Shown: in pieces, positions 2,126 through 54,804 of the stretch | Layout of the letters: the number at the start of each line of letters is the position of its first letter | Position numbering within the stretch: position 1 is the first letter of the stretch | Source of the DNA: Fibrobacter sp. UWR3 | GTDB lineage: Bacteria; Fibrobacterota; Fibrobacteria; Fibrobacterales; Fibrobacteraceae | Direction of reading: 5' to 3' | Assembly (NCBI RefSeq): GCF_900143055.1 | Contig: NZ_FRCW01000003.1 | Coordinates: 310,001 to 374,000, forward strand | Length of the DNA stretch: 64,000 nucleotides | Translations under genes and position numbers: made by a program | The notes under the pieces: model-generated | Told to the model about the DNA's origin: nothing | Seen by the model: the letters and a program-made list of their open reading frames with translations, nothing else | Database searches by the model: none

Positions 2126-2151
2126 AGTAACCCTTCTTTGTTTTTTCGCGA

Positions 2152-2159
2152 CAAATATA
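2152..2159 (-). promoter_or_regulatory. TATATTTG -7 type promoter element
   Basis: Perfect match to the Bacteroidota TAnnTTTG -7 element, reading toward the FISUMP gene 26 nt upstream of its ATG. That leaves room for the AAGAAGG ribosome binding site. Confidence 0.6.
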
Positions 2160-2166
2160 GGTTTTT

Positions 2167-2197
2167 TAGTCATTGGTCATTAGTCATCGGCCATTAG
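2167..2197. repeat. Degenerate period-7 repeat (TAGTCAT/TGGTCAT)
   Basis: Units TAGTCAT, TGGTCAT, TAGTCAT and CGGCCAT followed by TAG, located between two divergent genes. Same period and similar unit as arrays at 33710, 36894 and 52235. Confidence 0.7.
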
Positions 2198-2212
2198 TTG
2201 TCAAGCATTTTC

Positions 2213-2220
2213 TACATTTG
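2213..2220 (+). promoter_or_regulatory. TACATTTG -7 element, near-leaderless start of sufS
   Basis: TACATTTG ends 5 nt before the sufS ATG and no Shine-Dalgarno sequence lies between them. If transcription starts a few bases after this element, as in Bacteroidota, the mRNA would be leaderless or nearly so. Confidence 0.5.
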
Positions 2221-2225
2221 TATTC

Positions 2226-3476
2226 ATGAAAGATTCTGATGCAGAAACAGCTTACGATGCAGAAAAAATCCGTAGCGAATTTCCGATGCTTGTCGCAGGC
2301 GATAAGGATGCAAAGCCCCTCGCCTTCTTGGACAGCACGGCCACCACGCAAAAGCCCGCATGCGTCATCGACGCGATGGACGACTTTTACCGCGAACACT
2401 ACAGTTCCGTAAAGCGCGGCGTGTACCGCCTGAGCGCCCGCACCACCGAAGCATTCGAAGCCACTCGCAAGAATGTCGCAAAATTCATTAACGCGAAGAC
2501 CGAAGACGAAATCGTGTTCACCCGCGGCACCACCGAAAGCATCAATCTGGTGGCGTGGAGTTTCGGCCGCAAGTTCTTCGAGGCGGGCGACGAGATTCTG
2601 ATTAGCGGGCTCGAACACCATGCAAACATCGTGAGCTGGCAGCTCGTTGCCGAAATGAAAGGCGCGAAAATCAAGGTGATTCCCGTTTTGGACAACGGCG
2701 ATCTGGATTTGGCAGCACTACCCGGATTACTCACTCCACGCACCAAGATGGTGGCCGTCGCCCACGTGAGCAATTCCGTGGGCACCGTAAATCCGATTGC
2801 AGAAATTATCGCGACCGTTCGCGCCGCCGCACCCCAAGCGAAAGTTTTAATTGACGCCGCCCAGAGTTCGAGCCACATCAAGATTGACGTGCAAAAACTC
2901 GACTGCGACTTTCTCGCCTTCAGCGGACACAAGATGTACGGCCCCACGGGCGTGGGCGTACTCTACGGCAAGTACGAAGTTCTGGATTCCATGCCCCCCT
3001 GGCACGGCGGCGGCGAGATGATCAAGAACGTGACTTTCGAAAAGACGACTTATGCCGACGTTCCCGCACGTTTCGAGGCAGGCACGCCCATGATTGCCGA
3101 AGTTATCGGGCTCGGCAAGGCCATCGAATGGATTAATGAAGTCGGCATCGAGAACATTCGCAAGCACGAAGAAGAAATTACGAACTACGCATTGGAACAG
3201 CTTGCGCAAATTCCGCAGGTAAAAATCTTCGGGAACCCGAAGGAACGCGGCGCCCTCATCAGCATCACGCTGGACGGCATTGCTGTAAGCGACGCCGCCA
3301 TGATTCTCGACGAAGAAAACGTTGCGGTGCGTAGCGGACACCACTGTGCCCAACCCGTGATGGACCGTTTCGGCGTCGACGCCACGCTTCGACTCAGTTT
3401 CGGTGCGTACACCCTGAAGCGCGACATCGACCGCTTTGTCGCTGGCATCAAGCGCGTTCTCCGACTCTTCGGTTAA
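2226..3476 (+). CDS. sufS: Cysteine desulfurase, SufS/CsdA type
   Basis: PLP-dependent group II cysteine desulfurase, 416 residues, the usual size of SufS. It removes sulfur from cysteine as an enzyme-bound persulfide for Fe-S cluster or tRNA sulfur pathways. Visible landmarks: YLDSTATTQKP-like N terminus (FLDSTATTQKP), HHANIVSWQ, the PLP lysine in FSGHKMYGPTGVGVLYG, and the active-site cysteine in RSGHHCAQPVMDRFG near residue 372. No sufBCD or sufE lies in the window. The next gene, 11 nt downstream, is a TcdA/CsdL homologue, so a CsdA-like role feeding that pathway is possible (the E. coli csdA-csdE-csdL cluster is the precedent). Confidence 0.9.
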   Translation: MKDSDAETAYDAEKIRSEFPMLVAGDKDAKPLAFLDSTATTQKPACVIDAMDDFYREHYSSVKRGVYRLSARTTEAFEATRKNVAKFINAKTEDEIVFTRGTTESINLVAWSFGRKFFEAGDEILISGLEHHANIVSWQLVAEMKGAKIKVIPVLDNGDLDLAALPGLLTPRTKMVAVAHVSNSVGTVNPIAEIIATVRAAAPQAKVLIDAAQSSSHIKIDVQKLDCDFLAFSGHKMYGPTGVGVLYGKYEVLDSMPPWHGGGEMIKNVTFEKTTYADVPARFEAGTPMIAEVIGLGKAIEWINEVGIENIRKHEEEITNYALEQLAQIPQVKIFGNPKERGALISITLDGIAVSDAAMILDEENVAVRSGHHCAQPVMDRFGVDATLRLSFGAYTLKRDIDRFVAGIKRVLRLFG

Positions 3477-3487
3477 CCGGGACTCGT

Positions 3488-4321
3488 ATGGGAATCGAGA
3501 AAGGCATCTTTAACCGCACATCGCTCCTGCTCGGGGACGACGTGATGGGCGACATCTACCAGAAGCGCGTCATCATCTTCGGTCTCGGCGGAGTCGGCAG
3601 CTGGTGCGCAGAAAGCCTGGTGCGTTCCGGCATCAAGGAACTCGTGCTCGTCGATTCTGACCGCGTGTGCGTCACCAACGTAAACCGCCAACTGATGGCC
3701 ACCACAAAGACCGTGGGGCAAGTCAAGGTTGACGTGCTGAAAAATCGCCTACTCGAAATCAACCCGCACGCCAACATTGTCGCATTGCAGGACATCTACG
3801 AAGAAGCGAATACAGACAAATTCCAACTGGACACATTCGACTACATCATCGATGCCATCGACAGCCTCGAAAACAAGATGCAGCTGTTGTGGCACGCCAC
3901 GCGCACAAAGGCCACGGTATTTTCTTCAATGGGCGCAGCCCTCAAGATGGACCCCACACGAATCAAGGTCGCCGAATTCTGGAAAGTCGCCGGTTGCCCG
4001 CTCGCCCGCGCCCTGCGCGACAAGTTCAAGAAAAAGAAAATGGCGCTCAAGAAAAAAGTGCTGTGCGTCTACAGCGACGAACTCCTGAAAAACCGCGGCA
4101 AGAATTCTTCTTGCGGAACGGACGCCTGCATGTGCCCCAAGGTGCGCCACGAAAGGAGCGAAGCCGAACTCCAGAATGCAAACCTGGTCGATCACGAATG
4201 GTGCAGCAGCAAGGCGCAAATCAACGGCACCATGGCACACTCCACCGCTATTTTTGGATTCATGATTGCAGGCCTCGTGATGCAGGACATCTACAAGAAG
4301 GCATTGGCCAGCGCGGAGTAA
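3488..4321 (+). CDS. tcdA: tRNA threonylcarbamoyladenosine dehydratase TcdA (CsdL)
   Basis: E1-like ThiF/MoeB-superfamily enzyme that uses ATP to cyclise the t6A37 modification of tRNA to ct6A. The nucleotide-binding loop [17 protein letters not shown] lies at residues 25-41, followed by [16 protein letters not shown] and the DAIDS motif, all typical of the family. The C-terminal part has several cysteines ([12 protein letters not shown]), a feature of the CsdL branch. Length (277) fits. It sits between sufS and dtd in a compact co-directional cluster, which links sulfur transfer and tRNA quality genes. Confidence 0.88.
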
Positions 4322-14057: not shown

Positions 14058-15608
14058 TCAAGTATCCAGCAACCCATAACTCGCAAAGTCAAACGACCCA
14101 TCAGTATTTGGGTTATTGTTTGAAAAGTCCCACGGAAAACCATCTATTTCAGAAAAATATGGATGAGCCAGCCGTTCCGCAATAATGAACCGATTACTGG
14201 GGATTTCTTTTATATTGTTTTCAACATGTTCTCTATGCAAAGGAGGAATATTCGTCCCTTGTGTTGGACCTTGCAGATCCTTGTTTGCATGCTCTATTGT
14301 TGAATGGTAAAAATTGAAATCCGCACCACCGCCGAATGCATAATACATGATTTTCCCTCGATTTTTACGTTGTTCAGCCATTAGTTTTTTGTCCGTATTA
14401 TCAGCAGCAGTTATTCCACGAACGAAGCCACTTCTAAAATCAAGCGATTTCTGTTCTATTTTTGTCAGTGGAGGAAACCCTGAACCATATTTTGGGAGTT
14501 TCACATCCATCTTCTTTAGTTTATCCACACATTCCAAGCGATTTCTTCTATACTCCATAGGATAAAAATCTCTCAAAAGAACTTCTACTCCTAAAGGCAT
14601 AACAGTTTGTGAATATATGCGGGTTTTCTTTTCTCCATTTTCCTGCTTTATTGCTATTGTTGCACAATCAACAGTTCCGCCACCTACATCAAGAATCGTA
14701 TAAATTCCATCATCAGTAGAATGCTTTTCAATAAACCACAAAGCTTCAGCATAGAGTTCAGGAATTGTATCTAAAGACGAATCAGAAAAATTTTCATTAT
14801 CATCTATAAATCCATCTATCGCGTCCACAGATAAAAGTTCAAAATCAGATTGTTGGCTCAATGCAAACCCTATATTCAAAGCTCTATCATAAATACCCTT
14901 ATGTCCATCGCAGAAATTATCTATAGGGCAACCCATATTGAAGAAAAATTTTATATCATCAGTTTTACATTCTCGGCAAATAGAGTCTTTCACAAGTTTG
15001 ATTACTTTCGCTAAATAAAATGCAGAACAAATCAAGCTTATGCTATTCTTGATTTTCGGATTTTTCTCACAAATTTTACTAGCCGCCAAAAAATCATTGT
15101 TTATTAGCCCATACTTGAAATACTCTATTTTTTGAAGATTTTCATCGTTTTTCAATGACAAAGTGTTGTTTTGGGCGGAATAGAATAATACTGAAGGCAG
15201 ATAATATCTTTCGGGATTATTCGTTTCAAATTGAATGGCGAATTTCCCGTAATCTGAGACACTACAGAACACCTTGGTAAAACTCGTTCCAAAGTCAATT
15301 CCAACAATAGCTCTTTTCGATTTGCTTTTTTGGGGAAAAACTATATTTTTTCGTTCAGCATGATGCCGTGTTTTTTTTGTTGTTGAATCTATCACCTTTG
15401 ACGGCCGAATAATTTCGCTTTTATAACGCTCTTGCACTTTAGGAGGCTCGCGCTTTTCGAGAACATCAAACGGTCTTTCTTCCGCTACGGTTTTTACTCC
15501 TGAGGATTTTATTGTCTCTCGTCTATATTTCTCCTGAACTTGTGGAGATTCATGCGTTTTCTCATTTGATGAAAGAAATAAATTCTTAATCAGGTCAAAT
15601 AATTTCAT
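14058..15608 (-). CDS. Hsp70/actin-fold ATPase, partner of a SNF2 helicase
   Basis: 516-residue protein with the sugar kinase/Hsp70/actin fold. Phosphate-1 loop VGIDFGTSFTKVF (102-114), phosphate-2 loop TILDVGGGTVDCATI and adenosine motif YYAFGGGADFNF are all present. No DnaK-type substrate-binding domain or lid is obvious. Residues 1-100 are polar and contain a duplicated motif, VQEKYRRETIKSSGV (24-38) and VQERYKSEIIRPSKV (58-72). It begins 16 nt after the helicase C-terminal segment (15625), so the two were one transcription unit before the transposon inserted. The low GC and location suggest horizontal acquisition. A defence or DNA-remodelling role is inferred from the partner, not from a known family. 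Confidence 0.7.
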   Translation of the reverse strand: MKLFDLIKNLFLSSNEKTHESPQVQEKYRRETIKSSGVKTVAEERPFDVLEKREPPKVQERYKSEIIRPSKVIDSTTKKTRHHAERKNIVFPQKSKSKRAIVGIDFGTSFTKVFCSVSDYGKFAIQFETNNPERYYLPSVLFYSAQNNTLSLKNDENLQKIEYFKYGLINNDFLAASKICEKNPKIKNSISLICSAFYLAKVIKLVKDSICRECKTDDIKFFFNMGCPIDNFCDGHKGIYDRALNIGFALSQQSDFELLSVDAIDGFIDDNENFSDSSLDTIPELYAEALWFIEKHSTDDGIYTILDVGGGTVDCATIAIKQENGEKKTRIYSQTVMPLGVEVLLRDFYPMEYRRNRLECVDKLKKMDVKLPKYGSGFPPLTKIEQKSLDFRSGFVRGITAADNTDKKLMAEQRKNRGKIMYYAFGGGADFNFYHSTIEHANKDLQGPTQGTNIPPLHREHVENNIKEIPSNRFIIAERLAHPYFSEIDGFPWDFSNNNPNTDGSFDFASYGLLDT

Positions 15609-15624: not shown

Positions 15625-16665
15625 CTACTCAATATACAGCAATCCCAAGCATATTTCTGGATTTTCACATTGAACTGCCAGTTTTTGCTCGACATCATCA
15701 ATCTGATTTTTTAATCTCTCTTGAATAGACTTGATTATACTTTCCTGCAATTTGATGTAACGTTCTTTTTCTTGTGAAGTTTGTCCCGCATTGCTTTTTA
15801 TGGTTTCGATACTTTGTTCTGCCTGTTCTATTTTCCTAGCGGCCGTTGTAATTAGGGAAATTTTTTGTTGCTCGCAAACACCTCTGTTATCATCCTCAAA
15901 TTTTTTTTCATAATTCTGATATTCTTCATTAGCATTATTTCTAATCAAGTCAAGAGCATCATAGGCATCTCTTAAATCACAATACTCGTTCCATCGTTGA
16001 TTATTCTCACCAAACATATATGCATCAGAAACAATTTTTTCCGCTATTGCAGGTTCTAAACATTCTTGAGAGTCAACATTACACACGTAATATTTTAGCT
16101 GATTCTCTTTTTTAAAACCTTTTGCTTTCCATTGCTGAATGTAGTAAACATACATTCCTAGCGGAGCTTCTACATTGTCAGGATGATATTTTATAGATGA
16201 GCAACCATAAGGGACTGAGGGTTCGTTTAAACGCTCTTCAGTAATCCATTTTATTAATGGATGAGAATAAGAAATGACTTCTTTAGAACGTTTCACATCA
16301 TCCTTGATAGAGGCGTCAAAGAGACACAGCGTTTCTTGATTATCAAATTGCAACGATGAGCGCGATCCATCTTTTTTCAGATAATCACTAAACCGTATAG
16401 CAGCCTTATGCGACAACTTGATTATTAAAGCATCCTTGTAAATTGCATCATTTTTTATAATACAACCTTGCCATTTTTCAGTTAAATAATCCTCTACATA
16501 AAATCGCAAATCAATGGGCCTTATGTACCGTTGCGTTTTATTTGCATTTATAATATTATTTGTAATCAATTCCTGGAAAGCAATGCTATTAGCTGCATTT
16601 TTTTCGATATTTTCTTGATCCATCTTTTTCTTGCATATGGTGTCTATAATCTTTTCGTATTGTTC
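15625..16665 (-). pseudogene. C-terminal segment of a transposon-split SNF2/RapA-like helicase
   Basis: The open frame from ATG 16623 (332 residues, MDQENIEKNAANS...) continues upstream without a stop through 14 codons to the target duplication at 16666-16673. Across the transposon it joins in frame to the helicase at 21140. Joining gives 696 + 14 + 332 = 1,042 residues. The segment has an alpha/beta N-terminal part (KYYVCNVDSQECLEPAIAEK), then a long coiled coil (about 200-315) and ends LGLLYIE. No Shine-Dalgarno precedes the internal ATG, so it is probably untranslated or poorly translated as a separate protein. Confidence 0.85.
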
Positions 16666-16673
16666 TTTTTTTT
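16666..16673. repeat. Left target-site duplication (8 T)
   Basis: TTTTTTTT immediately left of the transposon; an identical octamer sits at 21140-21147. An 8-bp duplication is what the IS1595 family makes. Because the target is homopolymeric the duplication is less diagnostic alone, but it restores the helicase frame exactly. Confidence 0.8.
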
Positions 16674-16699
16674 GGGAATTATATACAATGTTCCACCCG
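16674..16699. repeat. Left terminal inverted repeat of the transposon
   Basis: 26 bp, GGG at the outer edge; pairs perfectly with 21114-21139. The match stops right after CCCG. Confidence 0.95.
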
Positions 16700-16831
16700 C
16701 CACAGTTCTGTAAATTTTCTTAAACACATTAGAATGGCAAAATATCTGCCTTGCGGTCTTGTCGCCTAGTCACTATATTGTAGTATGGATAGTATGGTGC
16801 TATAGAGTAAATAGCATAAGGAGTTAGAATT

Positions 16832-17224
16832 ATGGCTTTGAAGATTAAAGTCCACGAAAGAACACAAGGTTCAAATGAGCATATTCAAGAATCGGATATG
16901 TTTGAAATGGCTTGTTTGCGTAAAAAGCGGACAGGATTGCCTGTAAATATCTATGTGGATGATAGTGGTCAATGGAAGGAATCGGGACACGCCAACAGGA
17001 TTAAATTTCAAAACAACAAAGGCGACCATCCCGTTACACGGGGAATGATACCTATGTCTATAGACGATGACCCTGTTGTATTGGTGGATAACCCTAGAAT
17101 GGAGTTATCACAGGCTGACGTTAATGCCGTTAAGAAATTTGTTACTGCAAATAAGGATTTGTTAAACAGGTTGGGCGAAGATTTGGACATTGACGATTTT
17201 ATTAAAGCGATGGTTACAGTATAA
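16832..17224 (+). CDS. Small transposon passenger protein, unknown
   Basis: 130 residues starting MALKIKVHERTQG, with AAGGAGT 8 nt before the ATG. No domain recognised by name; the pattern RTGLPVNIYVDDSG, a basic RIKFQNNKGD and an Asp-rich C terminus is reminiscent of uncharacterised proteins of phages and mobile elements. It is the first cargo gene and is followed 23 nt later by a paralogue whose Shine-Dalgarno, start and first 18 coding bases are identical. A link to the downstream restriction enzyme or to transposition control is possible but untested. Confidence 0.7.
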   Translation: MALKIKVHERTQGSNEHIQESDMFEMACLRKKRTGLPVNIYVDDSGQWKESGHANRIKFQNNKGDHPVTRGMIPMSIDDDPVVLVDNPRMELSQADVNAVKKFVTANKDLLNRLGEDLDIDDFIKAMVTV

Positions 17225-17247
17225 TACTAGCACAAGGAGTTAGAATT

Positions 17248-17697
17248 ATGGCTTTGAAGATTAAACTGCACGAAAACCGTTCCATTGTTGAACAAGATAT
17301 ATCCGAAATGGCACGGGTCGGATTTGCCGACAAGTTGGAAGTGTCCGTATGGACGGATGATGGCGGTGAAGTTCCACACGTCCATATAACCAATAAGGAA
17401 CCTCCTAGTAAATCTACAAGTATAAACTTGTGCGTTCAGTTAGAAAAATCCGAATACTTCACACACGGGAAATATGACGGAACTCTAAATGCTTCGCAGC
17501 GTAAGGAGTTCAACAAGTTTATGCACCAACCTCACAAGCAGGGAAAGTTTGCGTCTAACTATGAGTATGCGGTATTTCTTTGGAATGACAACAACTCCAC
17601 ACACGAAATCAAACTACGGACTGACGAAAACGGGAATATAGTTATACCCGATTATACCAACATTGCGGATTATAAATCCAACAAAGATAAAGGTTAA
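17248..17697 (+). CDS. Small transposon passenger protein, paralogue of the preceding gene
   Basis: 149 residues, MALKIKLHENRSIVEQDISEM. The AAGGAGTTAGAATT leader and first six codons repeat those of the gene before it, so one arose by duplication or by recruitment of a shared expression signal. Central VWTDDGGEVPHVHITNK resembles the matching VDDSGQW segment of its neighbour, while the C-terminal half (YEYAVFLWNDNNSTHEIKL) is different. Function unknown. Confidence 0.7.
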   Translation: MALKIKLHENRSIVEQDISEMARVGFADKLEVSVWTDDGGEVPHVHITNKEPPSKSTSINLCVQLEKSEYFTHGKYDGTLNASQRKEFNKFMHQPHKQGKFASNYEYAVFLWNDNNSTHEIKLRTDENGNIVIPDYTNIADYKSNKDKG

Positions 17698-17767
17698 TTT
17701 AATAATCCAAACTACTGACACTTTCTGTCATAAATTTTGTATATATTTTATAGTGGAGGCATCCACT

Positions 17768-18700
17768 ATGAACGACCACGTAACCATCTCGCTCTACAAG
17801 ATTCTCAAGAAGTTCCCCGACAACGAAACCGCCCGAAAGTTCCTTGAACGGAAGCGTTGGGGTGACACGCCCACCTGCCCGTATTGCAGTTACACACATT
17901 CCGTAGCAAGGACAGACAAGAAACTAGGCTTTTACCGTTGCAACCATTGTCGCAAGGAATACTCCGTAAGAACCAATTCCATATTCGCAAACTCCAAGGT
18001 AGGGCTAGACAAGTGGGTTATCGCTATGTACTTGATGGTCACGGCTCGCAAGGGTGTATCTAGTATGCAACTCTCCAAGGAACTTGATATAACGCAGAAG
18101 ACCGCCTGGTTCCTGTGCCACCGCATCCGCTCCGCTATGGGCAACGGGAAATACAGCGGTCTGCTGCAAGGCATCGTGGAAATGGACGAAACATATGTGG
18201 GCGGTAAGGAAGCGAACAAGCACAACTCCAAGAAACTGCACGAAGGACGTGGCTCCGTGGGCAAGACTCCCGTGGTGGGCATCGTGGAGCGGGGCGGTCG
18301 TGTCCGTTCGTTCGTCACCGCAGACACCACCCAACTCACCTTGCAGGGTTTGGTCGCCTTGAACGTCCAAAAGGGTGCTGTCGTCAATACAGATGAATTT
18401 AGGGGATATGGCGACCTGTCCGAAAAGGGGTATGTCCACAACAGGGTGAACCACTCCGCTAAACTCTACGTGGACGGCAAGGCATATACGAACGGCATAG
18501 AGAGCGTGTGGAGCCTTGTCAAGCGTGGGTTCTACGGCACGTTCCACAAGTTCACCTTGGAGCACCTGCAACGCTATGTGGACGAGTTTGACTTCCGATG
18601 GAACAAGGGGAACTGCAAGGTGCCCACGGACGAGCGCATAGACTCACTTGTGTGTGGTTGTTGGGGCAAGACTTTGAACTATAGGACACTTGTTGCGTAG
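17768..18700 (+). CDS. IS1595 family transposase
   Basis: 310-residue DDE transposase. ATG 17768 is chosen because the protein then begins at the conserved domain (MNDHVTISLYKILKKFPDNE); the upstream extension has no family features. An N-terminal zinc ribbon has Cys 37, 40, 58 and 61 (CPYC...CNHC), followed by a helix-turn-helix-like SSMQLSKELDITQKTAWFL. Catalytic acids: D140 in VEMDETYVGG, D209 in VNTDEFRGY and E245 in NGIESVWSLVKRG. The frame is intact and the inverted repeats match perfectly, so the element may be recent or active. Confidence 0.93.
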   Translation: MNDHVTISLYKILKKFPDNETARKFLERKRWGDTPTCPYCSYTHSVARTDKKLGFYRCNHCRKEYSVRTNSIFANSKVGLDKWVIAMYLMVTARKGVSSMQLSKELDITQKTAWFLCHRIRSAMGNGKYSGLLQGIVEMDETYVGGKEANKHNSKKLHEGRGSVGKTPVVGIVERGGRVRSFVTADTTQLTLQGLVALNVQKGAVVNTDEFRGYGDLSEKGYVHNRVNHSAKLYVDGKAYTNGIESVWSLVKRGFYGTFHKFTLEHLQRYVDEFDFRWNKGNCKVPTDERIDSLVCGCWGKTLNYRTLVA

Positions 18701-18761
18701 TATCTTGTTATAAACTCTTGGAATATGTATATTTCTATGGAAACCATTGCAGGAGTTCCGA

Positions 18762-21065
18762 ATGACCGAGAAGTTCGCCACCGAAATAGAAGGGCAGACC
18801 GATTTCTATGACAGATTTCTGTCCCGAATCAATCCCAACAAGACTACCGAAGAAATTATCGCCAACAACAATGACGGAGTTCTTAACGGAAATCTGCTTG
18901 AGTTCAAACTCACCGTAAAGGACTTGAACGAAGTCCTGTTTCAGTGTGTGAAGTATTTGTCTGCTTTACGCTTAAAGGGTATTCCTGTTCCCGCCAATAT
19001 CGTGATTATAGACTTGAATGCCACTAGAGCGTATCTTTATAATTCAAATGACTATCTTGGATTTATAGAACAGATTTATATTGGTGGGGCATCAAAGAAC
19101 AATACGGGGTTTATTGGGAACGACCCTATCAAGATGTTGGACTATTCCAAGGCGTTATATGCGGAAACCTTGATTGCTACCCTAAAGGAAACCAACTTCA
19201 CTAAAATCCATATAGACGAGAACTGCATTGTCGGTTGGGCAGAACATTATTATAGGAAGAACCAAACTGCTAGGAAGGAGGACTTTCTAGGCGATGAAAA
19301 GGGCAAGCACAAGACAGTCGGTGAAATCCGCAACCCGACGATTTTCAAGGATTACATCTATCCGTACGAGGGTGAAACGAATGTCAAGTTCAATTACTTA
19401 ATGGATAAACTCAATGACACGCTCTTGAAGAAAAATCTTGGGGCTTTCTATACGCACCCGCTATATGCACAAAAGGCTGTTGAACTTGTGCGTATGGCTA
19501 TCAAGCGTGTCCCCGAAGGGAACGACTATATCATTCTTGACCGTTGTGCGGGAACGGGAAACCTTGAAACGGCTTTGAGCGATGAAGAACTGTCACATTG
19601 CATAGTATCTACAATAGAGTATTACGAATACAAGGTCTTGCAGGAACTTGTAGGCTCAAAGGTAAGGGCTATAATACCCCCGATAGAAACGAAAGAAACT
19701 TTCAATGCAGGATTAGTCTATGGGTCGGATGCCCTGTCCAAGGAATTTGTAGAAAACGAAGTTATCGCCCAATACGTGAACGACCCTAACTGCACGATAA
19801 TCCTCTTTGAAAATCCACCCTATTCCGAAACGACATCCATAGAACACCAAAAGAAGAAAAAGGGCAAGGAATCTACCGTGTGGAAGCAGTCCTATATCGT
19901 TAAGGAAATGAAGAAGGAAAAAATCAAAGGTACGGCTTCAAACGATTTAGGAAATGCCTTTATTTGGTCGGGATTCAAATACTATCTACGACAGCCTACG
20001 GATAGTTTTGTCGTGTTTTCTCCCGTAAAGTATTGGAAAGCCCACCACTTGATAAACAAGAAGATAATTGAAGGCTACGCATTCAACCGTAGGCATTTCC
20101 ATACGCAGATTGATGCTTGCATTATGTGTGCCTTGTGGAGCAACGAACCCTCGGATATTACGGAGTTCAACATAAAGGGCTACAACATTGATGCCAAGAC
20201 GGGCACGTTCTTGGACGAAGTGGTATTGCCCGTAAAGCGTTGCTATAGCCTTTACAGCGAAAAATTCTATGACAAGCGGGAATATGCTGACACAAAGGAT
20301 GGCGTATTGCTAGACTTTGACGGAACCGAAATCAAGAAAGACCGAAGTTCCGTTCGTCAAATTCCATTCTACAACGACAACATTATTGGCTATCTTGCGG
20401 TCAAGGGGGCAAACTTTGACAACCCCGATTCTAGTGTCCATCTGTTGAGAACGGCTGAATATGATGGGAACGGCTTTTATATAAGAACAACTAATTTCCT
20501 ACAATCTATGCCTATGTTTGCAGCAAGTCGCTACATAACATACAATAGAGGGTGGACGGAGCGTTCTAGGATAATGAAATCCGCTGACAAGGCAGACCGA
20601 TTCTTGGTGGATGCCCAAAGCGGTTGTTTGGACAATTTCTTGTTAAAATGTCTGTTATTTACCTGTATTGAAATGCAGAACCATTGCAGGTCGTTTACAG
20701 GTAGTGACGGCAGGTATTACAGGAACGAACTTTGCCTTGACGCAACCCACGGGGAAACCGTAGCATCCAAGGAATTGAAAAGGCTTGAACTGAATGAAAC
20801 CGAAAGCAGGATTTTCAAGTTATACGAATCCTTGATTGGACACGTAAAAGAAACAAAAGAATACGATAGTGAATTGACCTACGGGATTTATCAAATTGCA
20901 GAAGAAATAGATACATCCTATAAGGACACAACATCCAAGAAAGGGAAAACTGTTTATAACAACATACAGGTTCATTCCGATTTAAGGGCTATGAAAGAAC
21001 TTTGCAAGGAGTATTACAACCGAGAAATTGTCCCGATACTATTTGAATACGAGTTCTTGAAGTAG
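18762..21065 (+). CDS. Probable single-chain (type IIG-like) restriction-modification enzyme
   Basis: 767 residues; AGGAG lies 8 nt before ATG 18762. N-terminal segment has D38-G...LLE47-F-K49 followed by VKYLSALRLKGIPVPANIVIID, which fits a PD-(D/E)xK nuclease core. A class I N6-adenine methyltransferase follows: motif X region NLGAFYTHPLYAQKAVELV, motif I ILDRCAGTGNLE (about 258-268), and catalytic motif IV FENPPYSE (about 348-355). The C-terminal third, with no recognised family, would hold the target-recognition region. Nuclease, methyltransferase and recognition in one chain is the type IIG plan. It could instead be a methyltransferase only; the nuclease call is the weaker part. Confidence 0.75.
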   Translation: MTEKFATEIEGQTDFYDRFLSRINPNKTTEEIIANNNDGVLNGNLLEFKLTVKDLNEVLFQCVKYLSALRLKGIPVPANIVIIDLNATRAYLYNSNDYLGFIEQIYIGGASKNNTGFIGNDPIKMLDYSKALYAETLIATLKETNFTKIHIDENCIVGWAEHYYRKNQTARKEDFLGDEKGKHKTVGEIRNPTIFKDYIYPYEGETNVKFNYLMDKLNDTLLKKNLGAFYTHPLYAQKAVELVRMAIKRVPEGNDYIILDRCAGTGNLETALSDEELSHCIVSTIEYYEYKVLQELVGSKVRAIIPPIETKETFNAGLVYGSDALSKEFVENEVIAQYVNDPNCTIILFENPPYSETTSIEHQKKKKGKESTVWKQSYIVKEMKKEKIKGTASNDLGNAFIWSGFKYYLRQPTDSFVVFSPVKYWKAHHLINKKIIEGYAFNRRHFHTQIDACIMCALWSNEPSDITEFNIKGYNIDAKTGTFLDEVVLPVKRCYSLYSEKFYDKREYADTKDGVLLDFDGTEIKKDRSSVRQIPFYNDNIIGYLAVKGANFDNPDSSVHLLRTAEYDGNGFYIRTTNFLQSMPMFAASRYITYNRGWTERSRIMKSADKADRFLVDAQSGCLDNFLLKCLLFTCIEMQNHCRSFTGSDGRYYRNELCLDATHGETVASKELKRLELNETESRIFKLYESLIGHVKETKEYDSELTYGIYQIAEEIDTSYKDTTSKKGKTVYNNIQVHSDLRAMKELCKEYYNREIVPILFEYEFLK

Positions 21066-21100
21066 GGGAACACTACCCGTAGCGGTCTATACCACCAATA

Positions 21101-23227
21101 CTACACCACGTATCGGGTGGAACATTGTATATAATTCCCTTTTTTTTCGATTTCTGTCAAATTTTTGTTCATCAAAATAAGAGCAATATCTCTAATCGGT
21201 TCACCTAGAATCTCATCTAAATCTCCGATGGAACTTTCAAATATATCAATGCGTTCATATAGTTTTTGCAACACCCTATCTTCTACGCTGTCTTCGCAAT
21301 ACATATTAATGATATTTATTTTTTCGGACTTCTGCCCAATTCTATCAATACGGCCAATTCTTTGTTCCAATTTCATTGGATTCCATGGGAGATCGTAATT
21401 TATTTCCGTATCACAGAATTGCAAGTCAAGACCTTCCGCTCCAACTTCTGTTGAGAGAAGAATCGTTATAGACAAATCATTTTTAAATACATCAATCACC
21501 TCTGCTTTATTTTGAGTTATCCCGCCCATCATACTGATGCAATAAATTCCGTCTTCCTTAAATCGTTCCTCAAGATATTTTATCGTGCTCCTGTAAAAAG
21601 AGAAAAGAACTATTTTTGAACCGGGATACTTTTCCTGTTGATTTCGAATACATTCTAGTGTTGCTTTATATTTCGAATCTTCACATCTCAATCTTTCATA
21701 ATCAAATCCATTATTGATTATGATTTCATAAATATCTGGATGAGCATTAATTAAGTCGTCTTCCCCCTTTAACGAACGTTCACCATCTTCAAGCAGAATT
21801 TCTCCATTGGAATCATAGCTAAAAAAGCTATCAACCAACGATCTCCACGACGAAATCGTTGCCGGCAGGCAGCTTGCCATTTGTCTTTGGCGTCCAATAA
21901 TCCTAAAAGTGGTAAGACTTTCTTGTGCAAATGATGCCAATTCCTGCAAAGCCTCTGTCACTTTCGTATAAACAGAACGTTCATATTCACTAAGAGCAAA
22001 TGGATATTGAATGGGGTTACGTTTGCGAAGATTTTCAAACGCATCACATTTTCTAGTTCTTGTCACATAATTTGAATAAAATACCTTTTGCGCAAAGAGT
22101 TCATAATACCTCATGCGTTCTTGATTGTCAGCTATTATTCCCCTCAAATCCTTTTCAAACGCATCAACAAAAGAAGGATTACTTTTGTATGTAGGCCCAT
22201 CTTTTATCTTCAACAATAAATCTCGAATATTCGTCTCCGGAATTTTATTTCTTAATCCATTGGAGAGTTTTATATAATTCTGCCCTTCCTCCAATTGATA
22301 TTCAAATGTTCTTTTATCAAAGAAAACATCGGAATCTAGGATTTTTAAAAGGTTAAACAGGTTCGACGATTCTGTTTGTATAGGTGTTGCCGACAATAGC
22401 AAAACATGATTTGCATTTTTTCTAAGAGCCATTGTCGTATGATAATTAGCAGTCTCGCTGTTCCTTGCATTATGAGCTTCATCAAAAACAACCAAATCTA
22501 ATAAAGGATTAAACGAACTATCCATTCTCTTTAGTATATCATTTATTTTTTCTTTGGAATCTTTTCTACGAGATGGATTTTGGTCATCATCTTTTTCTTT
22601 AAAGCGAATTCCTTCAATACTTGTAATCAGTAAAAATCTTTTTTCGTTTGGAATTCGCTCTGTTTCTTCAAAATTTTCTAATAGCTCTTTTGCATCAACA
22701 ATTGTCGCTTCCTTTGAGAAGAATCTAGAAATGTCTTTTTTCCATTTTTCGCACAATGCTGCAGGACAAACAATTAATAATCGTCGGCTATTTTCACGAG
22801 CAATTAATTCCTCCCAAATATACATTGCTTCAATAGTTTTACCGAGACCAACCTCGTCTGCAATTAAGAGTTTTCCCGCTGTAGATTCAATAAACTTAAA
22901 AACAGGTTTGAACTGATGTGCTAGAAACTCAGTTGCTCTATTTCCCATAGAGTAGTAAATATTCGTCACATCACCCTTTATTCGAATGAATGATAAAATT
23001 CGCTTAAGTTCGGCAAGACCAAGAAAATCACCATTTTGAAATTTGTCATCCAAAGATTCTGTCGACTCAAGTTCAAGAAATTCTTCTTTAATAATTGGTT
23101 GTTCTTGCTGATTTACGAACACCTTCCATCTCACACTAGAGCCGACCATTCTTTTTTCTAGAATAGTTCCTCTTTTGTTGTCATTGACAATAACAACCAA
23201 GTCACCAGGTTTAAACTTGTCGGCCAT
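21101..23227 (-). pseudogene. N-terminal part of a SNF2/RapA-like helicase, truncated by the transposon
   Basis: Reads as 708 residues, of which the last 12 (GNYIQCSTRYVV) are encoded by the transposon end. N-terminal Tudor-like region (FKPGDLVVIVNDNKRGTILEK), Walker A ADEVGLGKTIEA (about 121-132), DEAH box VFDEAHNARN (about 246), LLLSATPIQT and motif VI EQRIGRIDRIGQKS (about 617-630) are intact, so both RecA lobes survive while the coiled-coil C terminus is lost. Start ATG 23227 has GAGG upstream. It may still yield a truncated ATPase, but the original gene is disrupted. Confidence 0.88.
21114..21139. repeat. Right terminal inverted repeat of the transposon
   Basis: Exact reverse complement of 16674-16699; followed by the right copy of the TTTTTTTT target duplication (21140-21147). 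Confidence 0.95.
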
Positions 23228-23447: not shown

Positions 23448-25877
23448 TCACTCGCATTTTGTAGACGGCAAATTCACTTTCAACCTTTCCGTCACTTTCT
23501 TTATCAACTCTGTCTCAATTTTAGATTCGTTCGGTAAGCGCAACCGTAGTATGAATTCACGAACAAGTCGCCGAACAAAAAGTTCCTCGGAAATCGTCTC
23601 ATCGGTGAGATTTTCTAGGATTTCGGCGTAGTCATCATATTCTTTAGACGCCTCTGGAAGTGACATTACCCATTCGTAAATTTCTCGGAAGAATGCTTTT
23701 AACGATGTTTCATCCAAATCTGGTCTTTGTCTATCATAATAAAAGAAGACTGAATCGGCCAATTCCTCGAATGTGTCGTCTAAAAAGCCTTCTTCTGATT
23801 CGCACTCTACGCCATCGCAATAATAGGAAGAGCAAATTTCGTTCCCTTCGGAATCAAATTCTTGGCATAGACCGTTAAATTGGTCTCTAAATATATACAT
23901 CTGTCTTTTTATACAGCCACTTTCATGATAAAATTTGGCTATTCCGTTTTTGCAAATGAATGATTCTTGGAGAATTCCGTTTTCGTCAAAAATTTCGTAT
24001 TTGCCATCTACGATTTGTCCATTCTTATATTGTGTTTTAGATTGTAACGCTCCGTTTTCGTGATAGACGAACTCCATTCCATCAGGCAAGAAACCATTCA
24101 TGTCAACTTCACGACATATAGAGCCGTCATCGTAATATTGTGTAATATGAGAGCCACAAGCATCACCATCAATATACATCGTTGATCTTACGACAGCCCC
24201 GTTGGCAGAAAAAATCTTTTCAAAACCTTGTTTGACACCATTTTCATAAGGGGTCTCTTTTTCTAGAGTACCATCTTCTTTATATTCTTTCGCAATACCT
24301 TCTGGAACACCATTACGATAAGGAGTTTCGCTCATCATGGCTCCGGATTCAAAGAAATATTTTTCAATGCCATCCTTTTTTCCGTGAATATAAAAGGTCT
24401 CGCTTCGCATGGTTCCGCTTCTATAATAAGAATGTTCTGCGCCGTCCTCAAGACCATATTTGCCAAAGAAAGTTTCTTGTGCCAGCGATCCGTCTTCATA
24501 ATATGTTTTTGACGGGCCAAGAATGAGATCGTCTAAGAACAGGCTTTCTTCCTTAAGACCTCCATTTTCATAATAGACATGCAGCAGACCGTGTTTCTTG
24601 CCTTCCTTGAATGTGCATTCAAAGGCTAAATTCCCGTTTTCAAAATAGTCCTTCCGTTCTCCGTCAAGAGAGCCGCCCTTGAAGAAACACTCACGAGCAA
24701 TCTGTCCATTTTCAAAGTATCCTTTGAATACTCCCGCATAAGCACCGTTTTTTAGGCCGAATATTTTTTTGATGTTCCCGTTTTCAAAAAAGACCGAGCA
24801 AAGACCATTTTCCCAATGTTCCTGTTCTAGGACGTTTCCATTCTCGCTATAAACCTCGACAATTCCATCAGCAACGACACCGTAGTTGTATGGACGGCAT
24901 GTCCGGAGTTGCCCGTTTTCATAAAACTGCTTTTCGTCTCCAATTAACGCACCTGCATAATAAGTACAATCGAGAATAGTGGTCCCACTTTCTGTATAGG
25001 TGTATTCGTGGCCATACATTAAACCGTTTTTGAAAAAACGACTCCGTTTTAAGGCTCCACTTTCATAAAACTCGTTTTGTAATCCATCTCTATGTCCGTA
25101 TTTGAAAGAGGAAGTCCAATTTAGTGCGCCACTTTCGTAGTATTCTCGTTCAAATCCTTCAGGCCTTCCGTTTTTTAGTTGTGTTTCAATCCGAATCCTT
25201 CCGTTATCATAGAAGAATTTTTCTGTACCATGTTTCTCGTTGTTCTTGTAAGGACATTCGTAAATAAGATGCCCGTTTCTGTTGTATTTCTTTTGTATTC
25301 CTTCGATTTTGTCGTTCGTATATGGCGTTTCAAACATTATATCGCCTGTGTCATAAAATCTCTTTTCTAAACCATCCCGCATACCGTTCCTAAAAAACAC
25401 TTCTTCTCGAACGCATCCATTTTCATAAAAAGACTTATATGAGCCTTCTATTTTGCCTTGGCTGTATTCGCAAGAAACCTTGATGTTGCCATTTGGGAAA
25501 TAACTTTTATATAAGCCTTCATAGCTAGTGCTGAAAAGCCCGTATTCAAGAATTAATCTATCTTGAGAATCAAACGCTTTGCATCGACAATTTGACCAAA
25601 ATTCAGTTAAAGCAGGTTTCCCTTTTTCATCAAAAACAACAACGTTTCCATTTACGGGGCGCCCTTGTTGAAATAAAATTTTGCAGCGCAACTTTCCATT
25701 GTCATGGTAAGTTTCTTCAACTCCATCAAGCAAATCGTCCTTAAACATCGCCTTGCGGCAAATATTTCCATTTTCATAGTAGAGAATGCATAGTCCGTTT
25801 CTTTTGCCATCTACTATTGGACATTCAAGTTTCGGATTTCCGTTAGGGTAGCTGGTTTTTAAGATGCCATTTTCCAT
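23448..25877 (-). CDS. Giant MORN-variant (YwqK-like) repeat protein
   Basis: 809 residues made almost entirely of ~23-residue repeats of the type YYENGxLxxExxYKNGxxDG, the MORN-variant repeat (PF07661) seen in YwqK-family proteins. The last ~110 residues are acidic and helical with no repeats (DETSLKAFFREIYEWVMSLPEAS). ATG 25877 is preferred (GGCGGGG upstream, and a TATATTTATG promoter-like element at about 25907-25916); an upstream extension would translate promoter DNA. There is no signal peptide. It precedes the helicase gene by 220 bp on the same strand. YwqK is annotated as an antitoxin in databases, but no toxin is seen here and that role should not be assumed. Confidence 0.8.
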   Translation of the reverse strand: MENGILKTSYPNGNPKLECPIVDGKRNGLCILYYENGNICRKAMFKDDLLDGVEETYHDNGKLRCKILFQQGRPVNGNVVVFDEKGKPALTEFWSNCRCKAFDSQDRLILEYGLFSTSYEGLYKSYFPNGNIKVSCEYSQGKIEGSYKSFYENGCVREEVFFRNGMRDGLEKRFYDTGDIMFETPYTNDKIEGIQKKYNRNGHLIYECPYKNNEKHGTEKFFYDNGRIRIETQLKNGRPEGFEREYYESGALNWTSSFKYGHRDGLQNEFYESGALKRSRFFKNGLMYGHEYTYTESGTTILDCTYYAGALIGDEKQFYENGQLRTCRPYNYGVVADGIVEVYSENGNVLEQEHWENGLCSVFFENGNIKKIFGLKNGAYAGVFKGYFENGQIARECFFKGGSLDGERKDYFENGNLAFECTFKEGKKHGLLHVYYENGGLKEESLFLDDLILGPSKTYYEDGSLAQETFFGKYGLEDGAEHSYYRSGTMRSETFYIHGKKDGIEKYFFESGAMMSETPYRNGVPEGIAKEYKEDGTLEKETPYENGVKQGFEKIFSANGAVVRSTMYIDGDACGSHITQYYDDGSICREVDMNGFLPDGMEFVYHENGALQSKTQYKNGQIVDGKYEIFDENGILQESFICKNGIAKFYHESGCIKRQMYIFRDQFNGLCQEFDSEGNEICSSYYCDGVECESEEGFLDDTFEELADSVFFYYDRQRPDLDETSLKAFFREIYEWVMSLPEASKEYDDYAEILENLTDETISEELFVRRLVREFILRLRLPNESKIETELIKKVTERLKVNLPSTKCE

Positions 25878-25957
25878 ATATGCCCCGCCTTTGATGTTTT
25901 CCGTATCGCCATAAATATACATCCATTGCAGCGACAAAATATGACATTTGTGGTATG

Positions 25958-25965
25958 TATATTTG
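25958..25965 (+). promoter_or_regulatory. TATATTTG -7 element of the small membrane-protein gene
   Basis: Perfect TAnnTTTG match 15 nt before ATG 25981, with AAGG-type ribosome binding sequence between. Confidence 0.55.
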
Positions 25966-25980
25966 TAAGGGCAAGGTTCT

Positions 25981-26133
25981 ATGCTGGTAACTTTCCTTAT
26001 CGTGCTTGGCATATTGGCCCTTTTCGGGGCTGGTGACGCAGGGGATGCCTGCGCCATTACCTTGCTATTGAAGGTTCTGCCGTTCCTGATTATCGTGGGG
26101 ATTGTGGCGTCGCTGGCGTTCTGCGGAGGGTGA
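25981..26133 (+). CDS. 50-residue two-helix membrane protein
   Basis: Begins MLVTFLIVLGILALFGAG and ends LPFLIIVGIVASLAFCGG: two hydrophobic helices joined by a short acidic turn (GDAGDAC) with no charged N terminus. GGGCAAGG upstream and a TATATTTG element give it complete expression signals. It lies divergent from the MORN-repeat gene. No family was recognised; small membrane proteins of this shape can be type I toxins, but there is no visible antisense RNA. Confidence 0.55.
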   Translation: MLVTFLIVLGILALFGAGDAGDACAITLLLKVLPFLIIVGIVASLAFCGG

Positions 26134-26161: not shown

Positions 26162-26352
26162 TTACGAGGTCAAAACGCCTTTTTTATGCAAATTTCGACA
26201 TTTTTGACACTAAAACCTCGTAAAATGCTCGTAATGAACTCGTAAAACGAGCGAAATTTACGAGATTTCTCAGAAAAATAATCTATATTCAAAATATCAA
26301 GATAAACCGCTACGAGAAGCAAAAATATTGTTTCGTAGCGAATTATACGAGG
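26162..26352. promoter_or_regulatory. Cluster of TACGAG/CTCGTA half-sites upstream of an ATPase gene
   Basis: TTACGAGG (26162), CCTCGTAA (26216), GCTCGTAA (26227), CTCGTAA (26239), TTACGAG (26258), TACGAG (26311) and TACGAGG (26346, which also serves as the ribosome binding site). A separate 8-bp dyad, CGCTACGA/TCGTAGCG, is at 26308-26315/26333-26340. Operator array is inferred. Confidence 0.5.
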
Positions 26353-26357
26353 TCTTT

Positions 26358-27803
26358 ATGGCGATTCTTGGTCGAAAAAAGGAAATTGGCGAACTGAAGC
26401 AACTGTATTCCAGCGACAAGGCCGAATTTGTCGCCGTTTATGGTCGCCGTCGCGTAGGCAAGACATTCCTTATAGACGAAGCTCTAAAAGGATCGATTAC
26501 ATTCCGCCACGCCGGACTCAGCCCGGTAGACGAAACAGGAGCATCAAACAATTCCAAGCAACAGCTTCAGCATTTCTACCAGTCGCTCCAGTTGCAGGGG
26601 ATGAAAAAAAGCCATTGTCCCAAGAACTGGCTTGAAGCATTCTTTATGCTGGAACAGTTTCTCCAACAAAGGGATGATGGTAAAAGACAGGTCATCTTTT
26701 TAGACGAACTCCCCTGGATGGACACTCCCAAAAGCGGTTTCATAACCGCTTTGGAAAGTTTCTGGAACACTTGGGCATGCCATAGACAAAACCTGATGCT
26801 TATTGTTTGTGGCAGCGCCAATTCATGGATGCTAGACAATCTCGTCAATAACCATGGTGGTTTATATGGCAGAACCACTTACGAAATCAAGTTGATGCCG
26901 TTCACTCTATCCGAATGTGAGGCTTTCTATAAAAGTCAGGGTATTCAGATGTCGAGATACGATATAGCCCAGGCGAACATGATCCTTGGCGGCATTCCCT
27001 ACTACATGACCTACTTGGCAAAAGGCAAAAGCCTCGCCCAGAATATCGATACGTTATTTTTTGATTCCAACGCCAAACTGAAAAACGAGTTTTCTCGTCT
27101 ATTCGCATCCGTCTTCACTAGACCAGAAGATATGATTCGTATTGTCCGATTCCTATCGTCTCGTCGAAACGGTTTCACACGTGATGACATTGCTCAAAAT
27201 ACACAATTGTCCAACAATGGAGACTTATCCAAACAACTCAACGCCCTTACCGCTAGCGACTTTATCGAGAAATACTTTCCCTTTGGCGAAAGCAAACGAA
27301 AGCCTCATTACAAACTAATCGATCCTTTCTGCCTATTCTACCTGCGTTTCGTAGAAGGTCAAAAAAACATAGACCCGCAATTTTGGATGAATAACGTCGA
27401 CTCTGCCAAGATAAACGCCTGGCGAGGCTACGCCTTTGAAGATTTGTGCTTTAGACACATAAGTCAAATAAAGCATGCTTTGCAGATTGCAGGGGTTACA
27501 ACGACACAATCCGCATGGTCGTTACAGGGCGACGACAAACAGGTCGGAGCACAAATAGACCTTATCATATCTCGCAAGGACAACGTAATAAACCTGTGCG
27601 AAATGAAATTCTACAGCGAAGAATTCACCATATCTAGCGACTATCACAAGACTCTTGTCCACAGAACCAATCTCTTGCAGCAACAGGTATCTCGCAAAAC
27701 AGCCGTCCACAATACACTCGTGACAACTTACGGACTCACCTATAATGCCTATTCTAGCGATTTCATGAATACTATCACGCTCGATGATTTGTTCAACACC
27801 TAA
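26358..27803 (+). CDS. AAA ATPase with DUF234-type nuclease-like C terminus
   Basis: 481 residues. GAGG overlaps the upstream half-site and supports ATG 26358 over an ATTATACGA-adjacent earlier start. Walker A YGRRRVGKT (28-36), Walker B QVIFLDELPWMD, a sensor-like VCGSANSWML, a winged-helix segment (NGFTRDDIAQNTQLSNNGDLSKQLNALT), and a C-terminal DUF234-like domain with GAQIDLIISRKDNVINLCEMKFY: D, then E-x-K, a PD-(D/E)xK pattern. The ATPase_2/DUF234 family is widespread in Archaea and anaerobes, usually in many copies; its function is unknown, with mobile-element or defence links suspected. Adjacent to the accessory island. Confidence 0.8.
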   Translation: MAILGRKKEIGELKQLYSSDKAEFVAVYGRRRVGKTFLIDEALKGSITFRHAGLSPVDETGASNNSKQQLQHFYQSLQLQGMKKSHCPKNWLEAFFMLEQFLQQRDDGKRQVIFLDELPWMDTPKSGFITALESFWNTWACHRQNLMLIVCGSANSWMLDNLVNNHGGLYGRTTYEIKLMPFTLSECEAFYKSQGIQMSRYDIAQANMILGGIPYYMTYLAKGKSLAQNIDTLFFDSNAKLKNEFSRLFASVFTRPEDMIRIVRFLSSRRNGFTRDDIAQNTQLSNNGDLSKQLNALTASDFIEKYFPFGESKRKPHYKLIDPFCLFYLRFVEGQKNIDPQFWMNNVDSAKINAWRGYAFEDLCFRHISQIKHALQIAGVTTTQSAWSLQGDDKQVGAQIDLIISRKDNVINLCEMKFYSEEFTISSDYHKTLVHRTNLLQQQVSRKTAVHNTLVTTYGLTYNAYSSDFMNTITLDDLFNT

Positions 27804-53892: not shown

Positions 53893-54804
53893 CTATTCGA
53901 GGATAATCTTCTGGGCGAACTTGACGTTCCTGCCTGCAACGCGGAGCATGTACACGCCCGCATCAAGGCCGGTGAGGTCCAGCGTGCTGCCCACGGTCGC
54001 GCTCTTCACCACCTGGCCCTGCAGGTTAATCACTTCGGCCTTGGCAGAAGAGATGCCCGAGAACGAGACGGTGCGGCCAGAGAGCATGGCCTTGGCAGAA
54101 CCGGCAGCGGCGATAGCCTTGATGCCGGAGCAGCAAGAGCACATGCCGTTAGAACCGACCTTCTGGATGAGGAAGTCGCCAGAGGTACCGGCGGTGCCTT
54201 CGAACTTCAGCTTGATGGCCGCAGTCTTGGCGAGGACGGTAGCCTGGTCAACAATCGTGCCCCAGCCGGTGCCCTGCTTGAACTTGCTCCACGGGAAGTC
54301 GGAAACAGTTATAGTGGCAGCCTTGGCAACGGTAGCCTTGTAGTTGTTGTATTTAGTCACGGTAGCTTCGTCTTCAACACCGAGTTCGATGCCGAAACCA
54401 ATCGTAGACTGGTACGCAAGGCAGATGCCTCCCCAAGCGGTAATGTCAACACCTTCCTGGCCTTCGCTCCAGATGTTGAAGCCGATACCGGCATACGGAT
54501 AGTCGTAGCCAGCGCCGAGGGTGACGGTGGCCTTGATGCCGCCGTAGGCTTCGACGAGCGGGCCGTAGAAGTTGTCGTAAGCGTTGGGTTCGACGTCGGC
54601 CGGGAACGTAAAGGCAGAAGAACCGCCATCGTTCGCGTCGTTGTAATCGTACCAGTAGCCGGACGTTTCTTCGTCGGAACCGGTTTCGACCTTACCTTCG
54701 GTATCGGTGGTGCCGTCCCAGAGGAAGGTCGGAGAGACTGCGCCCTGAGCAAAAGCCATAGCGGCAGCGCCAGCAACGGCTGCAAATGTTTTTACCTTGT
54801 TCAT
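53893..54804 (-). CDS. Secreted carbohydrate-binding-like protein with T9SS-like sorting domain (copy 1)
   Basis: 303 residues; GGAGG precedes ATG 54804. Signal peptide MNKVKTFAAVAGAAAMAFA. Residues about 25-220 have the CBM11/CIA30-like look (FLWDGTTDTEGKVETG, SGYWYDYNDANDGGSSAFTF, FNIWSEGQEGVDITAWGGI), as in many Fibrobacter polysaccharide-binding modules. The last ~70 residues (SAKAEVINLQGQVVKSATV, LDAGVYMLRVAGRNVKFAQK) match a type IX secretion sorting domain. The region between them has SCCS (Cys-rich). It is a recent duplicate of the gene at 55063. Binding to plant polymers is inferred. Confidence 0.75.
   Translation of the reverse strand: MNKVKTFAAVAGAAAMAFAQGAVSPTFLWDGTTDTEGKVETGSDEETSGYWYDYNDANDGGSSAFTFPADVEPNAYDNFYGPLVEAYGGIKATVTLGAGYDYPYAGIGFNIWSEGQEGVDITAWGGICLAYQSTIGFGIELGVEDEATVTKYNNYKATVAKAATITVSDFPWSKFKQGTGWGTIVDQATVLAKTAAIKLKFEGTAGTSGDFLIQKVGSNGMCSCCSGIKAIAAAGSAKAMLSGRTVSFSGISSAKAEVINLQGQVVKSATVGSTLDLTGLDAGVYMLRVAGRNVKFAQKIILE

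Follow-up and report, generated by a model that had tools for sequence, protein, structure and literature searches.

In the gut-type Fibrobacter sp. UWR3, an IS1595-family transposon interrupts, after codon 696, what is otherwise one 1,042-codon gene for a RapA/DrmD-type SNF2 helicase. The explanation favored here, with a probability of about 85% as a whole, is that this transposon-split helicase is half of a conserved pair with an Hsp70-like ATPase, that the pair is a putative anti-invader module, and that the module is probably crippled at this locus. The insertion is ordinary transposon biology; what appears to be new is the pairing of a RapA-type helicase with an Hsp70-like protein, putatively a helicase-based form of defense. 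Automatic annotation would give two proteins here, hiding the broken gene.

The window, meaning the whole stretch of DNA analyzed, is 64,000 nt long and corresponds to positions 310,001–374,000 (forward) of NZ_FRCW01000003.1 in assembly GCF_900143055.1. All coordinates are window-based. The features of the locus, with the evidence for each in parentheses, are:

14058..15608, minus strand: gene for an Hsp70-like ATPase of 516 aa, second in the helicase unit (motifs, AlphaFold fold, 77 of 80 loci)
15625..16673, minus strand: 3′ part of the helicase gene, residues 697–1042 plus the target-duplication copy (PDLC02623 positions 704–1036, 79 homologs, RapA fold)
16666..16673, no strand: target-site duplication copy 1, TTTTTTTT (sequence and frame of the join)
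16674..21139, no strand: IS1595-family transposon, 4,466 bp, single copy in the genome (terminal inverted repeats, transposase, 8-bp target-site duplication)
16674..16699, plus strand: left terminal inverted repeat GGGAATTATATACAATGTTCCACCCG (perfect 26-bp repeat)
16832..17224, plus strand: passenger ORF, 130 aa, no known family (ORF listing, Pfam)
17248..17697, plus strand: passenger ORF, 149 aa, no known family (ORF listing, Pfam)
17768..18700, plus strand: IS1595-family transposase, 310 aa, zinc ribbon and DDE domain (Pfam, NCBIfam, catalytic blocks)
18747..21065, plus strand: passenger, 772 aa, predicted N6-adenine methyltransferase with a PD-(D/E)XK-like N terminus; alternative ATG at 18762
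21114..21139, minus strand: right terminal inverted repeat (perfect 26-bp repeat)
21140..21147, no strand: target-site duplication copy 2, TTTTTTTT (sequence and frame of the join)
21140..23227, minus strand: 5′ part of the helicase gene, residues 1–696, SNF2/RapA core (Pfam, PDLC02623)

Geometry of the Insertion

The ORF listing for the window has a 708-aa ORF at 21101–23227 and a 332-aa ORF at 15625–16623, both on the minus strand, with the 4,466-bp element (16674–21139) and its perfect 26-bp terminal inverted repeats (TIRs) between them. Directly outside the element on each side is TTTTTTTT, at 16666–16673 and 21140–21147. The flanks were joined in silico by script: once 16674–21139 and one 8-bp copy are removed, one 1,042-residue frame results (...LTEIEKK|EQYEKIID...), and if both copies are retained, the frame is broken soon past the junction. 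A sequence-only reading of this DNA had claimed such a join, in frame and without a stop, and the claim holds; its coordinates and ORF sizes (708 and 332 aa) are exact. One small correction is needed: the open frame of the C-terminal fragment begins at the target duplication, so that the homologous C-terminal part has 346 residues, and the 332-aa ORF starts only at the first internal ATG of that part, with a weak ribosome site. The target is a run of eight A residues; that the duplication is 8 bp long is taken from the known habit of the IS1595 family and from the frame rather than from sequence diversity.

The C-terminal fragment is open over 348 codons, a length reached by none of 2,000 first-order Markov simulations with the same nearest-neighbor composition. 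Third-position GC content (GC3) is 0.28 and 0.29 in the helicase halves, 0.29 in the next gene (Hsp70-like), and 0.69 in the transposase. A chance join is excluded by the simulations, by the shared GC3 of the halves, and by 79 homologs that are continuous across the join.

Helicase Family and Homologs

The N-terminal fragment has the Pfam domains SNF2-rel_dom (1.2e-26) and Helicase_C, and all of the helicase motifs (at residues 123, 249, 279, 596, and 622) are within it. Its residues 5–696 match positions 3–688 of the PADLOC profile PDLC02623 (DrmD) at 1e-165; the C-terminal fragment matches positions 704–1036 of the same 1,040-position profile. The helicase also matches PDB RapA by sequence. 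Structure prediction was run on the C-terminal fragment alone, not on the joined protein. The resulting AlphaFold model (mean pLDDT 89) has just two significant matches in the PDB, both to E. coli RapA (E 4e-6, probability 1.00). By its SNF2 and Helicase_C domains and its RapA-like C-terminal region, the helicase is classed as a member of the RapA/DrmD family, as the earlier SNF2/RapA-like assignment had it. The coiled-coil C terminus proposed at the same time is borne out in part: the model does end in a long helical hairpin (fragment residues 233–331), but the fragment has alpha/beta elements too.

A BLAST search with the joined protein yields near end-to-end matches to relatives of 1,033 aa (another genus of the same family), 1,048 aa (Shinella), 1,041 aa (Leptolyngbya), and 1,091 aa (Cyanobacterium), and a scan for the helicase across 84,980 species genomes gave 80 best loci. 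The 79 intact full-length relatives (1,004–1,101 aa, median 1,043) run gap-free through the join, where 42 residues correspond to 40–43 in the relatives and every alignment column is at least 97% occupied. This is the database search that had been proposed as a check on the reconstruction; the claim would have had to be dropped for relatives ending near residue 696, or for C-terminal homologs that are always separate genes. No helicase homolog among the 80 genome loci ends near residue 696, and C-terminal homologs are not regularly separate genes. With both halves on one profile, full-length homologs, and the fold of the C-terminal fragment, the two ORFs do represent one protein. Four of the 80 loci are without an ORF of ~1,000 aa: L063, at a contig end; L081, with two ORFs and the break elsewhere; and two with ORFs of 867 and 916 aa. 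Both the L081 helicase (1070–4252) and the Hsp70-like gene of locus L108 (7977–9213) are in two ORFs, possibly through frameshifts, sequencing errors, or further inactivations. The helicase gene is absent from all 79 other Fibrobacter species genomes searched; no empty allele is demonstrable there.

The Transposon and its Cargo

The transposase matches Pfam DDE_Tnp_IS1595 (PF12762, 3.8e-46), Zn_ribbon_IS1595 (PF12760), and NCBIfam NF033547 (5e-62), all above cut-off, and has the catalytic blocks DETY (140), NTDE (207), and NGIE (242). The TIRs begin GGGAATT and are flanked on both sides by the 8-bp duplication, in agreement with the TIRs and 8-bp target duplications that are the rule for the IS1595 family (PMC8101967, PMC12561309, PMC5704250); in one described member the 8-bp duplications are A/T-rich, consistent with this family (PMC8101967; PMC12561309). 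A second TIR copy was found neither in the UWR3 genome nor in the 79 genus genomes, and searches by inverted repeat, transposase, and cargo found no close further copies of the transposon in the genus or phylum. As a single copy absent from the 79 other genus genomes, the transposon looks like a recent arrival, and the insertion itself looks young because the TIRs and target duplication are perfect and both helicase halves are still open. In viral contigs the transposase has relatives at 39–55% identity only. Excision of IS1595-type elements has been suggested to be replicative (PMC5704250), for which reason precise reversion is not expected.

The start regions of the two small passenger ORFs are a 48-bp duplication, 94% identical (16812–16859 and 17228–17275), through which both have a common ribosome site and start with almost identical residues (MALKIKxHE). 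The second of them has no match in the plasmids searched. The 772-aa passenger is likely a type IIG-like methyltransferase, as predicted from the motifs NDG..LLEFK at residue 42, DRCAGTGN at 265, and ENPPY at 355; an N-terminal D...ExK pattern (NDGVLNGNLLEFK) is suggestive of a PD-(D/E)XK nuclease. It has a weak match to PADLOC MTase_II and nothing above cut-off in Pfam or NCBIfam. The nearest relatives found are on four Limosilactobacillus plasmids (~41% identity by tblastn, 45% in alignment), and the motifs are kept in one Limosilactobacillus homolog (L035). Relatives in the passenger's own genus are distant, at ~20–36% identity over part of the length, and it was not found in the phages or viral contigs searched. 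Nothing found in its own phylum is as close to the cargo as the Limosilactobacillus plasmid proteins, which points to transfer between distant bacteria.

The Hsp70-like Partner

The Hsp70-like gene (14058–15608, minus strand) begins 16 bp past the helicase stop and has a good ribosome site. Its 516-aa product contains phosphate-1 (GIDFGTSFTK, residue 103), phosphate-2 (DVGGGTVD, 307), and GGG (426) motifs, with G103, D105, G107, K112, D307, G309, T312, G426, and G427 invariant among 50 aligned sequences. There is no Pfam match for the protein, and the partner is absent from both Pfam and PADLOC. The best fold match for its AlphaFold model is DnaK/Hsp70 (E 3e-12, probability 1.00), at a query TM-score of only ~0.4. 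The three motifs and the Hsp70/actin fold are those of Hsp70-superfamily nucleotide-binding domains, and motifs and predicted fold together show the gene to encode a diverged Hsp70-like ATPase. A canonical DnaK chaperone was considered and rejected, there being no Pfam HSP70 match and the chain ending soon past the nucleotide-binding domain; for the latter reason no canonical substrate-binding domain is seen.

Of the 80 genome loci, 77 have the helicase next to an Hsp70-like gene; the three others sit on contigs of 3.0, 3.7, and 5.5 kb. Adding three plasmid loci brings the number of pairs to 80; in every one the two genes share a strand, the Hsp70-like gene being downstream in 64 and upstream in 16. 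The gap has a median of 6 bp and is no more than 50 bp in 69 pairs; in 28 the genes overlap. Going by the record titles, the pair is spread over about a dozen phyla, with members in Fibrobacterota, Spirochaetes, Cyanobacteria, Alpha-, Beta-, and Gammaproteobacteria, Smithella/Desulfosarcina, Acidobacteria, Planctomycetes, Myxococcales, Ignavibacteriales, Gemmatimonadetes, KSB1, Cloacimonas, Omnitrophota, and others. By this survey of gene order, helicase and Hsp70-like ATPase are shown to be a conserved two-gene unit in many phyla. In a set of cyanobacterial loci (L040–L042, L045, L050, L053, L055, L057, L058, L060, and L009) the Hsp70-like gene is upstream of the helicase, and its product has a long N-terminal extension, for a total of ~700–1,069 aa.

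As a control, 14 further helicases (from 13 plasmid loci and one same-family genome) were scored on the branch profile. The two at or above about 1,000 bits (L146 and L148) have an Hsp70-like neighbor, and the other 12, at 182–620 bits, do not; this split by score makes the Hsp70-like partner a property of this helicase branch and not one that SNF2 helicases share in general. At the three nearest sister loci, all on plasmids, the neighbor is instead a protein of 1,034–1,113 aa with a Sacsin (Hsp90-type) domain (L147, 9126–12467; L149, 8845–11949; L150, 8802–11927), possibly a second chaperone-ATPase-coupled branch, and more distant sister helicases adjoin DUF1156 proteins, DpdF/G/H, or HEPN genes. 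The Sacsin/Hsp90-like sister branch suggests that chaperone-type ATPases have been recruited to such helicases more than once.

No paper naming or describing an SNF2-Hsp70 pair was found in the open-access literature searched. Older defense-island surveys are said to have included chaperone-like genes.

Genomic Setting and Possible Function

The window copy is within a stretch of 35–45% GC at ~13.7–27.9 kb, and GC3 is 0.28 in the helicase vs. 0.78–0.80 in flanking host genes. Syntenic stretches of the relatives examined have no match to this island: the left conserved block stops near 13.6 kb and the right one starts at 28.0 kb, and the two are not adjacent in those relatives. This AT-rich island also contains, shortly upstream of the helicase, a gene for an 869-aa MORN-type-repeat protein (23448–26057, 40% GC), and at its right end, with intermediate GC, one for a 491-aa ATPase with the P-loop GRRRVGKT (26328–27803). 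Elsewhere in the window, tandem near-identical genes at 53893–54906 and 55063–55977 (337 and 304 aa) encode secreted-type proteins with the same C-terminal tail, apparently a recent duplication.

Neighbors of the helicase relatives include BREX PglZ (L044), DrmB (L103, L106), a NERD-UvrD helicase (L103), LmuB (L094), and an Argonaute-like gene (L112); there is no constant third gene or nuclease in the unit across these neighborhoods. The BREX, DrmB, Lamassu, and Argonaute genes make a defense role likely, and from neighborhood and homology we infer that the unit is a horizontally moving anti-invader module, directed at phage or plasmid DNA. Two betaproteobacterial loci (L103, 1093–9982; L113, 1141–9947) have a DrmB-like gene (shown in L103), a NERD-UvrD helicase, the RapA-like helicase, and the Hsp70-like ATPase, an order resembling a four-gene DISARM-like system.

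The helicase of such a module would use ATP to translocate along DNA and, much as RapA acts on RNA polymerase, strip or remodel complexes of protein and DNA; recognition and binding of the partner would fall to the RapA-like domains and the helical hairpin of its C-terminal part. The Hsp70-like protein, which has a complete nucleotide site and no recognized substrate-binding part, would be a nucleotide-driven switch acting on the helicase or on the helicase's target.

As a result of the insertion, the 708-aa ORF consists of helicase residues 1–696 plus 12 foreign residues read from the transposon; residues 697–1042, the C-terminal third, are cut off from the helicase core; and the Hsp70-like gene is a further 4.5 kb away from the helicase's own upstream region. 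Helicase function is likely lost or strongly reduced, with partial activity possible since the core survives; the "inactivation" spoken of in the sequence-only reading is no more than plausible, given that every helicase motif is still in the N-terminal fragment. The insertion probably also uncouples the downstream Hsp70-like gene, probably leaving the module at this locus dead or crippled. Beyond that earlier reading, the analysis adds the Hsp70-like partner, the family of the transposon, and the transposon's cargo.

A broader proposal is tentative, and we would put it at somewhat under even odds: RapA/DrmD helicases paired with chaperone-type ATPases (Hsp70-like, and Sacsin/Hsp90-like in the sister branch) may be an unrecognized, widely transferred anti-invader class whose DNA translocase is under the control of a chaperone-style ATP switch; this locus would then be a natural knock-out. 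Defense databases label the helicase DrmD, and in this branch it is nearly always found with an Hsp70-like ATPase. If the pair does defend cells, it would be a compact two-gene system shared by about a dozen phyla, and labeling helicases of this branch DrmD would be misleading.

Alternative Explanations

The split gene might still work as two polypeptides, either by assembly of the truncated helicase with a separately started C-terminal protein, or by TIR-driven transcription of the C-terminal part and the Hsp70-like gene. Neither half shows decay of its open frame, an outward-reading TATAAT is present inside the inverted repeat, and the ribosome site of the Hsp70-like gene would serve. A young insertion explains the open frames equally well, however; the 332-aa ORF is preceded by a poor ribosome site, no promoter-like pair was detected at that TIR end (the promoter and terminator scan yielded nothing usable), and in the 80 loci there is no natural separate-gene version save the one two-ORF case broken elsewhere. 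We consider this unlikely. That the two ORFs are unrelated neighboring genes whose frames join by accident has in its favor only that automatic annotation would list two ORFs; it is refuted by the continuous homologs, and with one profile over both parts, matching composition, and the RapA-like C-terminal fold its probability is vanishingly small.

Mobile elements commonly cause misjoins and the host assembly is in 20 contigs, so that the transposon might have been placed inside the helicase by assembly error; but a single-copy element offers no repeat to misjoin, both junctions have matching 8-bp duplications and perfect ends, and the site is inside a 418-kb contig, which makes such an error extremely improbable. 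The helicase could also be the leftover DrmD of a DISARM system, in which drmD would stand beside drmA, drmB, drmC, and a methylase gene: PADLOC and NCBIfam both give it that label, and betaproteobacterial relatives adjoin a DrmB gene. No DrmA, DrmB, DrmC, or DISARM methylase gene is recognized in the island, however, the NCBIfam DrmD score is 331 vs. a cut-off of 610 bits, and DrmB is found in 3 of 73 scanned neighbor proteins of relatives vs. an Hsp70-like gene beside nearly every helicase. On neighborhood and score DISARM membership was rejected, and descent from such a system is very unlikely. The preferred reading remains that of a helicase/Hsp70-like pair interrupted by a transposon.

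Comparison with Known Systems

DISARM DrmD (PADLOC PDLC02623, NCBIfam NF038317) is like the present helicase in family and length, and between them the two halves cover the PADLOC profile from end to end; it differs in that the present protein falls below the NCBIfam cut-off, lacks DISARM partners, and has as its constant partner an Hsp70-like ATPase, not DrmA/B/C. RapA, the RNA-polymerase-associated SNF2 ATPase, shares the SNF2 core and the C-terminal fold, but is encoded by a lone housekeeping gene that has no Hsp70-like partner. BREX BrxHII is reported to have the architecture of RapA (PMC12839542), but sits in BREX operons.

The sister helicases of Methanomethylovorans, Ensifer, and Rhizobium plasmids are also RapA-like and directly followed by a large chaperone-type ATPase gene, but this partner is of Sacsin/Hsp90 type, not Hsp70-like. 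The published proteins that come closest to the Hsp70-like partner are the CoCoNuT CnuD proteins, diverged Hsp70-like ATPases that belong to a restriction-type system (PMC11090510); they are linked with McrBC-type GTPases, and the helicase present in Types II and III is UPF1-like rather than RapA-type. Among transposons, MTnSag1 and tISCpe8 (PMC5704250) have in common with the present element the transposase family, inverted repeats of ~25 bp, 8-bp duplications, and the carriage of cargo, but their cargo is mobilization functions or lincomycin resistance, whereas here it is the predicted type IIG-like methyltransferase and two small ORFs.
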